In this document: piece by piece, positions 9,113 to 37,845 of the stretch
Position numbering within the stretch: position 1 is the first letter of the stretch
Layout of the letters: each line of letters begins with the position of its first letter
DNA from: Eubacterium sp.
Lineage (GTDB): Bacteria > Bacillota > Clostridia > Oscillospirales > Acutalibacteraceae
Direction: 5' to 3'
Length of the DNA: 39,230 nt
Assembly (NCBI GenBank): GCA_029050995.1
Contig: JAIDLO010000062.1
Span: 1 to 39,230 of the forward strand
Notes under the pieces: model-generated
The model's input: only the letters and a program-made list of their open reading frames with translations
Told to the model about the DNA's origin: nothing
The model's database searches: none
Translations under genes and position numbers: made by a program

Positions 9113-11206
9113 ATGCCAAGAAAAGTATCTCTTGAAATGACAAGAAATATTGGTATTATGGCGCATATCGATGCTGGTAAAACCACAACTACTGAGCGTA
9201 TCCTTTATTACACAGGTAAAACGCATAAGATTGGTGAAACCCACGATGGTGCAGCTACTATGGACTGGATGGAGCAAGAGCAGGAAAGAGGTATTACAAT
9301 TACTTCTGCTGCAACAACTTGCTTCTGGAAAGATCATAGAATTAATATCATTGATACACCTGGACACGTTGACTTTACTGTAGAAGTTCAGCGTTCACTT
9401 CGTGTACTTGACGGCTCTGTAACTGTTCTTTGTGCAAAAGGCGGCGTTGAGCCTCAGTCTGAAACTGTATGGCGTCAGGCTGATGATTACCATGTTCCGC
9501 GTATGATTTATGTAAATAAGATGGATATTATGGGTGCAGATTTCTATAATGTTCTTAACATGGTAAAAGAAAGATTTAAATGTAATGCAGTTCCAATTCA
9601 GCTTCCAATCGGTGCTGAAGATACCTTTAAGGGTATTGTAGACCTTATCAATATGGATGCTGAAATCTATTATGATGATATGGGTAATGATGTTCGTCAT
9701 GAGCCTATTCCTGATGATATGATAGAACTTGCTAATAAATACCACGAAGAGCTTATCGAAGCTGTTGCAGAACAGGATGAAGCTCTTATGGAAAAATACT
9801 TTGAGGGTGAAGAGCTTACACTTGATGAGATTAAAAAGACCATCAGAAAAGCTACTTGTGACGGTAATATGGTTCCGATTACTTGCGGAACATCTTACAG
9901 AAACAAGGGTGTTCAGCCTCTCCTTGATGCTATTGTTGATTATATGCCTGCTCCAACAGATGTAGAATCAATCAAGGGCGTTAATCCTGATACAGATGAA
10001 GAAGAATGCCGTCATTCATCAGACAGTGAGCCATTCTCAGCTCTTGCATTCAAGATCGCAACAGACCCGTTTGTTGGTAAGATCTGCTTCTTCCGTGTAT
10101 ATTCAGGAACGCTTAATGCAGGTACACAGGTTTATAACTCTGTTAAAGGTCATAGAGAAAGAATGGGTCGTATTCTTCAGATGCATTCAAACCACAGAGA
10201 AGATATTGACTGCGTATACGCTGGCGATATCGCTGCTGCTGTTGGTTTAAAGAATACAACAACTGGTGATACGCTTTGTGATGAAGATCATCCGGTAATT
10301 CTTGAATCCATGAACTTCCCGGAGCCTGTTATCCGTGTTGCTATTGAGCCTAAAACAAAGGCTGGCCAGGAAAAGATGGGTATTGCTCTTGCTAAGCTTG
10401 CAGAAGAAGACCCAACATTCAAGGCTTATACAGATGAAGAAACAGGCCAGACAATTATTGCCGGCATGGGCGAGCTTCATCTTGAAATTATCGTAGACCG
10501 TTTGCTTCGTGAATTTAAGGTTGAAGCAAATGTTGGTGCTCCTCAGGTAGCATATAAAGAAACAATTCAGCAGGAATCAATGTCTGATACTAAGTTTAAG
10601 CGTCAGTCAGGTGGTTCCGGTCAGTACGGTCATGTTAAAATCCGTATGTCACCAAACCTTGATGAAAATGGTATTGGTAAGGGCTATGAATTCGTTAACT
10701 CAATCGTTGGTGGTGCTATTCCTAAGGAATACATCCCTGCTGTTGATGCAGGTATCCAGGGCGCTATGAAGAGCGGTGTACTTGCAGGTTACCAGATGGT
10801 TGATATTAAAGTTGAGCTTTATGATGGATCATACCATGAGGTTGACTCATCTGAAATGGCATTCAAGATTGCCGGTTCTATGGCATTCAAGGATGCTGCT
10901 AAGAAAGCAAATCCTGCTATCCTTGAGCCTATGATGAAGGTAACAGTTATTGTTCCTGAAGAATACATGGGCGATGTTATCGGCGACCTTAACTCTCGTC
11001 GTGGTCAGATTCAGGGTATGGAAGACAGAACAGGTGCTAAGCAGATTAACTCCCGTGTTCCGCTTTCAGAAATGTTCGGCTATGTAAATGACCTTCGTTC
11101 CAAGACTCAGGGTCGTGGTCAGTACACAATGGAACCGGACGGATACGAGCAGGTTCCGAAGTCTATTTCAGAGGGAATTATCTCTGAAAGAGCTAAAAAA
11201 GACTAA
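9113..11206 (+). CDS. fusA: Translation elongation factor G
   Basis: EF-G is the GTPase that drives translocation of tRNA and mRNA on the ribosome. The GTP-binding motifs are intact: AHIDAGKT at residues 17-24, DTPGH at 81-85 and NKMD at 135-138. The downstream domains are full length (697 aa, the typical size), including [10 protein letters not shown] of domain IV and the C-terminal [10 protein letters not shown] region. The start ATG has TTAGGAGGA just upstream, 27 nt after rpsG. It looks like the canonical housekeeping EF-G rather than a tetracycline-protection or EF-G2 paralogue, because it sits in the str cluster. Confidence 0.98.
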
Positions 11207-12673: not shown

Positions 12674-12705
12674 TGTAGGGACGAGCATTGCTCGTCCGTT
12701 TTTAT
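12674..12705 (+). repeat. Palindromic repeat unit, class A (GTAGGG...CCGTTTT)
   Basis: The unit begins TGTAGGG, has a perfect 8-bp stem GGACGAGC (12679-12686)/GCTCGTCC (12690-12697) with loop ATT, and ends GTTTTTATT. It is nearly identical to the unit at 18797-18831 (one base differs in the stem). The T run makes it terminator-like on the plus strand. It directly abuts the 3' end of the XRE gene. Confidence 0.8.
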
Positions 12706-14967: not shown

Positions 14968-15000
14968 CGTAGGGGCGGAATCCATTTCCGACCGTTTTGC
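14968..15000 (+). repeat. Palindromic repeat unit, class A
   Basis: CGTAGGGG, a stem CGGAA/TTCCG with loop TCCAT or similar, then CCGTTTTGC. It begins 3 nt after the stop of the LRR gene. Together with the units at 12585-12705 it brackets the XRE/PUA/LRR island. The stem is less perfect than in other copies. Confidence 0.65.
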
Positions 15001-18688: not shown

Positions 18689-18721
18689 GGAGGGGACGAT
18701 GCTCACATCGTCCCGTTTTGC
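18689..18721 (+). repeat. Palindromic repeat unit, class A (paired with 18740-18773)
   Basis: GGAGG, a perfect stem GGGACGAT (18693-18700)/ATCGTCCC (18707-18714) with loop GCTCAC, then GTTTTGC. Its core CGATGCTCACATCG differs by one base from the core of the neighbouring inverted unit. Confidence 0.8.
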
Positions 18722-18739
18722 ATTTCTTTAACTTTGTAT

Positions 18740-18773
18740 ATTCGGTGCGATGTGGGCATCGCACCCTACAATT
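18740..18773 (-). repeat. Palindromic repeat unit, class B (inverted)
   Basis: ATTCGGTGCG to CACCCTACAATT; read on the minus strand it begins TGTAGGGTGCG. The stem GGTGCGATG (18744-18752)/CATCGCACC (18757-18765) is a perfect 9 bp with loop TGGG. It points opposite to the class A unit 19 bp upstream, so the pair is bounded by GGAGGGG and CCCTAC. Confidence 0.8.
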
Positions 18774-18796: not shown

Positions 18797-18831
18797 TCGT
18801 AGGGGCGAGCATTGCTCGTCCGTCTTTTTTT
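18797..18831 (+). repeat. Palindromic repeat unit, class A, acting as a terminator
   Basis: CGTAGG, a stem GGGCGAGC (18803-18810)/GCTCGTCC (18814-18821) with one G-U pair, then CCGTC and seven T residues. The T tract makes it a plausible rho-independent terminator for the recD2-mreB-DUF4190-like group. It is nearly identical to the unit at 12674-12705. Confidence 0.8.
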
Positions 18832-37748: not shown

Positions 37749-37782
37749 ATTCGGTGCGTCGGGGACGCCGCACCCTACGAAT
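37749..37782 (-). repeat. Palindromic repeat unit, class B (inverted)
   Basis: ATTCGGTGCG to CACCCTACGAAT; on the minus strand it begins ATTCGTAGGGTGCG. The core GCGTC-GGG-GACGC with flanking GTGC and GCAC forms the stem. It has the same borders as the unit at 18740-18773 but a different core, which matches that of its own partner 29 bp away. Confidence 0.8.
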
Positions 37783-37810
37783 ATTAAAATATACTTAATG
37801 ATATGGATTA

Positions 37811-37845
37811 TCGTAGGGGATGGCGTCCTCGACATCCCGTTTTGC
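37811..37845 (+). repeat. Palindromic repeat unit, class A (paired with 37749-37782)
   Basis: TCGTAGG, a stem GGATG/CATCC around GCGTCCTCGA, then CGTTTTGC. The core GGCGTCCTCGAC differs by one base from that of the class B unit beside it. The unit ends 5 nt before the phosphoesterase stop codon. Confidence 0.8.

Follow-up and report, generated by a model that had tools for sequence, protein, structure and literature searches.

We found that palindromic repeats of a gut bacterium share their inner core more often than expected by shuffling where two units stand head-to-head (HH, GTAG outside) and only at the shuffled level where they stand tail-to-tail (TT, GTAG inside), and that a family of transposase genes carries the same kind of repeat twice in frame, head-to-head and with matched cores. 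Over two gene sets, the 99 genes with two sites had matched cores at a similarity of 0.90-0.92, as compared to 0.43-0.44 for shuffled pairs. The best explanation, which we consider likely, is that both ends of an HH dimer must suit the same transposase. Both arrangements occur in the window, by which we mean the whole stretch of 39,230 nucleotides analysed here (Table 1), and the genome is a 97%-complete draft MAG of 1.80 Mb from the Oscillospirales.

REP units in the window and in the genome

The units are real; they are small mobile hairpins (REPs) of an ordinary kind, from a gut bacterium, and belong to the GTAG superfamily of REPs: a GTAG (or near) foot lies directly 5' of a palindrome of 20-40 bp, and the copies are many, dispersed and probably mostly extragenic, both window loci lying between ORFs. 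Their layout is GTAGGG-arm(3)-core-arm'(3)-CCG over 24-27 bp, with an 8-9 bp hairpin and a loop of 3-4 nt. Of two covariance models, run at E ≤ 0.5 on the 1.80-Mb genome, one matched 75 units and the other 57, and merging of both sets gave about 127 places. Typed by patterns of our own definition, the units fell into the core types GGCGTCC (n = 41), CGAGCATTG (n = 30), GATGNCCACATC (n = 25), ACGGGTT (n = 10), GGATATTATCC (n = 7) and a few smaller types. In the REP alignment 93% of the stem cells were paired, the stem covariation score was 0.533 against 0.189 when shuffled, and double changes occurred in 6/9 pairs. An Rfam search of the REP units matched no family.

Table 1. REP units and spacers in the window.
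Feature	Position	Strand	Remarks
Single REP unit, 24 bp	12675..12698	+	CGAGC core
Single REP unit, 26 bp, then TTTTGC	14969..14994	+	GGAATC core
REP unit, left half of HH dimer (locus 1)	18689..18715	+	GATG core, arm GAC ('class A'), foot GGAG
HH spacer, 27 nt, TTTTGCATTTCTTTAACTTTGTATATT	18716..18742	.	homologous to spacers in nine other HH dimers of the genome
REP unit, right half of HH dimer (locus 1)	18743..18769	-	GATG core, arm TGC ('class B')
REP unit, 24 bp, GTAGGGGCGAGCATTGCTCGTCCG	18799..18822	+	TT relative to unit 18743..18769
REP unit, left half of TT pair (locus 2)	37752..37778	-	GGCGTCC core, arm TGC ('class B')
TT-pair spacer, 34 nt	37779..37812	.	other TT pairs of same composition have unlike spacers, 9 and 10 nt
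REP unit, right half of TT pair (locus 2)	37813..37839	+	GGCGTCC core, arm GAT ('class A')

The first-pass annotation had described two inverted palindromic units with particular cores at each of two loci, and these are present at both. The arrangement differs: 18689-18769 is head-to-head and is one HH dimer of the GATG-core type, while 37752-37839 is tail-to-tail and is a neighbour pair of the common GGCGTCC type. Several features ascribed to the two unit classes, A and B, need correction. The GTAG foot expected of class A is GGAG at 18689, and only 3 exact GTAGGG...CCGTTTTGC units exist genome-wide, so that CCGTTTTGC is no fixed class A end. A loop base said to follow class (T in A, C in B) is unit position 15 in locus 1 and position 17 in locus 2, and it varies within arm types genome-wide (GAT arms, T 8 and C 3; TTC arms, T 7 and C 4). 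A and C both occur with GAC arms and with TGC arms in the GATG family. Among GGCG-like pairs inside the transposase genes described below, the position-17 difference recurs in either order (C then T in L208, L209, L210 and L217; T then C in L236 and L237) and is therefore tolerated variation.

Core matching in HH and TT pairs

Neighbouring units at most 60 bp apart were paired and then shuffled, in shuffles that ignore phylogeny. HH pairs of the own genome had a common core type in 10/16 cases against 4.3 expected by shuffling (p = 0.0012), with a graded core similarity of 0.722 against 0.522 (p = 0.0003), whereas TT pairs had one in 6/22 against 6.6 expected (p = 0.72), with a graded similarity of 0.502 against 0.516 (p = 0.58). 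The earlier expectation of within-pair core identity above chance genome-wide is thus borne out for HH pairs and not for TT pairs. The core match at 37752-37839 is unremarkable, because GGCGTCC is the commonest core and TT matching is at chance level. TT pairs were also considered as the mobile unit and rejected, there being no core excess and the spacers being largely unlike.

Three TT pairs (C107, C191:8265 and C231:37752) are all composed of TGC-GGCGTCCCC / GAT-GGCGTCCTC; their spacers are unlike (9, 10 and 34 nt), and such pairs are more frequent than their rarity suggests. Hybrid HH dimers also occur, GATG with CGAGC at C168:15406 and GGCTA with CGAGC on C15 and C43. Genome G065 holds spacerless GATG dimers, in which the units abut, at C65:6483-6536 and C270:23703-23756; their arms are unlike (AAC with TGC or TGT).

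The spacers of ten HH dimers, 24-30 nt long, form one family whose consensus is close to TTTTCATTGTTTAAACCTTGTACATT; their mean pairwise identity is 0.66, as compared to 0.45 (at most 0.478) when shuffled. Identity is still 0.63 between dimers without a common core type; cores therefore changed while the borders stayed. At its two ends this HH spacer supplies the TTTT(G)C that follows 'class A' and the AAT that follows 'class B', and these ends are the supposed fixed borders TTTTGC and AAT. The proposal of matched cores within fixed borders stands for HH dimers, with their homologous spacers, and falls for the TT pair at 37.8 kb, TT matching being equal to the shuffled level. Locus 1 is one of 10 inverted dimers that recur at unrelated places and keep a conserved spacer, as expected of a REPIN, and locus 2, in TT arrangement and without core excess, is not of this kind.

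A transposase gene with in-frame REPs

A REP-type (Y1) transposase, which the first-pass annotation had suggested looking for, was found in the same genome. A PF01797 search of the own genome gave no match, the family having diverged too far from that model, and only a family profile revealed the gene. This profile was built from six weakly matching Y1 proteins of about 160-175 aa in relatives, whose genes hold two in-frame REPs. It matched 47/118 relatives, some only via weak matches to other Y1 proteins, and the own genome as well, where the REPs again lie inside the ORF. The own intact gene is a 170-codon ORF around C26:1582-2055 (-) with GTAGGGGCGAGCATTGCTCGTCCG at both sites, placed head-to-head around the HUH codons. 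A second own copy, cut by the end of contig C83, has GTAGGGTTCGGCGTCCTCGACGAACCG at site 2 (GGCGTCC type). The core types of the C26 and C83 genes are the two commonest in the genome. Window unit 18799..18822 is letter-identical to both in-gene REPs of the C26 gene, and unit 37813..37839 to in-gene REP site 1 of a transposase gene of Chakrabartyella piscis (L330).

The C26 protein has the motifs NHIH, WQ and YIENNP. It matched NCBIfam REP_Tyr_transpos (E = 1.9e-17) at 63.5 bits, under the curated cut-off of 80, and TnpAREP 4er8 by PDB profile (E = 6e-11), which is also the best fold match of its AlphaFold model (pLDDT 86). We therefore regard it as a TnpAREP-like product, a putative TnpAREP/RAYT-like HUH transposase of predicted TnpAREP-related HUH-Y1 fold. 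The REP-encoded residues (about 39-47 and 93-102) are in two predicted loops of the model, one between strands 35-38 and 48-51 and the other between strand 83-90 and helix 103-118. In its motifs and in-frame REP insertions the protein agrees with TnpAREP subclass 2.4. It is not a RAYT in the sense of Nunvar 2010, that is, a gene flanked by two inverted REPs, for REPs lay at most 400 bp outside in few of 51 genes.

Two other groups of relatives' proteins were dropped as cognate enzymes, Y1 proteins of 240-296 aa (in-gene REPs in 0/13) and IS200-type TnpA (0/27). Hardly any REPs of GTAG type were found beside the longer Y1 genes inspected. These longer proteins (L182-L193 and L199; 240-296 aa, no in-gene REPs) gave up to 8 matches per genome (G051) and could be counterparts of subclass 2.1, which lacks REPs.

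Matched cores inside the gene

Both in-ORF units were present in 48/51 family genes of relatives, a few weak units being placed by hand from the sequence, and the opposite arrangement was found in none of the 51. Forty-four distinct in-gene pairs had a core similarity of 0.903 against 0.429 when shuffled (maximum 0.542; 0/10,000). A second set, from a separate scan of the collection, consisted of 80 genes from named genomes, a few of which may share species with the first set. It was mostly Oscillospirales, with Anaerosolibacter, Geosporobacter, Fonticella, Gemmiger, Flavonifractor and a few MAGs of Spirochaetes, Synergistaceae and Chitinispirillales. At least one in-ORF unit was found in 69/80 of the named genes and both in 51/80, a detectable in-ORF REP being absent from 11/80. 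Relative to the MPNH codon, the sites in this set are fixed at −123 and +44 nt (interquartile ranges −124.5 to −120 and 40 to 59 nt), and the in-gene core similarity was 0.917 against 0.441 shuffled.

Relative to the REP, the coding strand at one site is opposite to that at the other, and the same DNA core therefore yields different peptides, VGASIARPS and DGRAMLAPT for the two GTAGGGGCGAGCATTGCTCGTCCG units of the C26 gene. The match is thus a property of the DNA and not of the peptide. The idea that HH dimers are internal deletions of the gene was unsupported, the dimer spacer being by eye unlike the gene segment between the units.

Two family genes depart from this layout. The ORF of L250 (G031:C73, - strand, about 9600-10440) has its site-1 REP amplified in tandem, with five identical units at a 42-nt period that keeps the frame, and four further units at a 45-nt period lie just downstream. 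L230 (G033:C8), the sole family gene of the relatives without an in-gene REP, is closely flanked on both sides by several REPs of two other types, in the manner of classical REPtrons.

Gene and genomic repeats

The gene was present in 19/23 genomes with at least 10 R1 hits and in 13/95 others (Fisher 4e-10; counts tallied by hand from listings). By core type, a CGAGC gene occurred in 3/7 genomes with at least 5 CGAGC units and in 0/111 others (p = 1e-4), and the same comparison for GATG units gave a GATG gene in 2/6 as compared to 1/112 genomes (p = 0.006). All 26 listed GATG units of G031 carry the arms of its own gene. Of the 123 extragenic units in the own genome, 77 share their exact inner core with a gene-borne unit, and 37 of these 77 match cores of the own two genes. 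In short sampled stretches of G007 and G031 there was no exact match of genomic cores to the own in-gene cores.

No cognate gene for the GATG core of locus 1 was found in the own assembly; one is present in G002, G029, G031 and L340/L350. Other genomes are rich in units as well, with no GATG gene detected beside 27 and 31 GATG units in G057 and G065, and no family gene beside 22 and 17 CGAGC units in G074 and G116. Gene loss after spread, or assembly gaps, would explain such genomes.

A second, double-hairpin repeat (GCCTCCCTTGTTAAAGGGAGG...CCGCTTGCGGTGG..GGATTCAA) adjoins TTC/GGCGTCC REP units at G000 C16:5875-5939 and C120:11560-11619 (L018, L006) and at 16 more fetched loci. Its exact core was found at 18 fetched loci, some overlapping, and the repeat may be part of a composite element in which one end is a REP.

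Why the cores match

The mechanism that we favour would run as follows. REPs would move as inverted pairs in HH orientation (REPINs), driven by HUH-tyrosine transposases of TnpAREP/RAYT type, a single enzyme binding the hairpins at both ends of the mobile dimer. Because one enzyme must bind both ends, the inner core (stem core and loop) would have to be the same at both, with more freedom in the spacer and in the three outermost base pairs of the stem. Each transposase lineage carries its own REP type twice in its ORF, head-to-head, one copy before and one after the HUH codons; this pair follows the same rule and may serve as a reference copy. Cores would then be matched and change in concert both in dimers and in the gene, and adjacent TT units would be mere neighbours whose cores match by chance only. 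We infer that the C26 protein binds and moves the units and that this shared binding is the reason for the matched cores, and the in-gene pairs suggest why both hairpins of a mobile pair match. Counting against this reading are the lack of a cognate gene for the GATG core of locus 1 in the own assembly, the unit-rich genomes with no gene detected, the samples of G007 and G031 with no exact core match, the 11/80 named genes with no detectable in-ORF REP, and the weak correlation of protein identity with core similarity (Mantel r = 0.19, p = 0.001).

The strongest alternative, which we nevertheless judge unlikely, is that each inverted unit can serve as template for the other, through gene conversion or fold-back template switching, with no part for protein recognition. 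The inverted palindromes in the genes are about 143 nt apart, a setting that suits such copying, and three genes with mixed in-gene pairs (L246, ACCACCGGT/AGCATTGCT; L245, AGCATTGCT/ACCATTGGT; L281, ACCATTGGT/AGCATTGCT) look like half-way states. Copying should, however, homogenise the arms as well, yet none of the 16 close matched dimers has identical outer arms (against 3.6 expected, P = 0.013), and the arms differ in 14/50 in-gene 27-mer pairs whose cores largely agree. Close TT pairs would be subject to such copying too, but their cores do not match. In arm identity, close dimers and in-gene pairs are unlike (Fisher 3e-10); whole-unit identity in close dimers shows no significant deficit (0 against 0.9), so the avoidance of identical arms is a trend only. 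On the reading that one enzyme suits both ends, matching may be kept up by selection alone or by selection helped by template switching between the inverted copies.

Somewhat less probable still is a passive origin, in which HH families descend from one symmetric ancestral dimer and in-gene pairs from one insertion, with neither selection nor exchange. HH dimers are indeed homologous across the spacer and related genes often have a common core. Plain descent would, however, let the two sites drift apart, whereas the in-gene cores fall into 25 clusters, for which a tree of 96 genes, built with the REP residues masked, requires 39 changes or more; both sites therefore changed together many times. 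Genes that are 63-70% identical outside the REPs have different yet internally matched cores, and HH dimers with the same spacer carry different cores. Least probable, and quite doubtful in our view, is that the units are transcribed hairpins (terminators or mRNA-stability elements) matched by RNA-level selection for one long hairpin: both loci are intergenic, the stems covary and locus 2 is predicted to fold in that way, but the HH dimer of locus 1 is predicted to fold into two separate hairpins, the arms are unlike in all close matched dimers, the in-gene pairs keep the same design within ORFs and no Rfam family matches.

Beyond the demand that both dimer ends suit one enzyme, we put forward more tentatively, as a proposal that could well be wrong, that the in-frame hairpin pair is a DNA address tag, matched at the DNA level whatever peptides it encodes. 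It would make enzyme and target inseparable, and target switches would be concerted at both gene sites and then reach the dimers. These results address how REPs gain new recognition sequences and why both ends of a REP dimer match. Genes with both hairpins at fixed in-frame sites make the pairing of enzyme and target readable from sequence in about a hundred genes of many lineages, and how the enzyme recognises its target, how targets are switched and how the two are inherited together become directly testable in gut Clostridia, for which we found almost nothing in the literature on such a REP-transposase system.

Comparison with known systems

TnpAREP recognises the GTAG foot and the hairpin (PMC8266576), and the association of REPs with transposases and their proposed coevolution are established themes (PMC2817692; PMC3116915), enzyme and REP co-evolving (PMC2817692). 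GTAG REPs and their HH, TT and HT dimers, both hetero- and homodimers, were described by Di Nocera et al. 2013 (PMC3733652). The present units resemble that superfamily in the GTAG foot, the stem of about 8-9 bp, the short loop and the complementary changes between sub-families, and in the rule that HH spacers are conserved and TT spacers variable. The GTAG list of that study covers Proteobacteria, Cyanobacteria, Chloroflexi and the PVC group, whereas the units here are from Clostridia (Oscillospirales); its main text has no separate treatment of core and arms and states no core matching confined to HH pairs, both of which are described here. With REPINs and RAYTs (Nunvar 2010, PMC2817692; Bertels and Rainey 2011, PMC3116915) the system shares an inverted REP pair and a cognate Y1 transposase, but there the inverted REPs flank the rayt gene and here they are within the reading frame, on either side of the HUH codons.

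The closest likeness is to TnpAREP subclass 2.4 (Quentin et al. 2018, PMC6006769), for which the main text describes in-frame REPs within tnpAREP genes, generally between HuH and Y; the motifs NH[IFV]H, WQ and YI..NP and the in-frame REPs are common to both. The main text of that paper places the site between HuH and Y only, whereas a second fixed site lies before HuH here; it describes neither matched cores nor an HH orientation, nor the different reading frames seen in the present genes. The main texts of the literature, supplements apart, gave no earlier account of two fixed sites around HuH, of their HH orientation and matched cores, or of the HH/TT core contrast.
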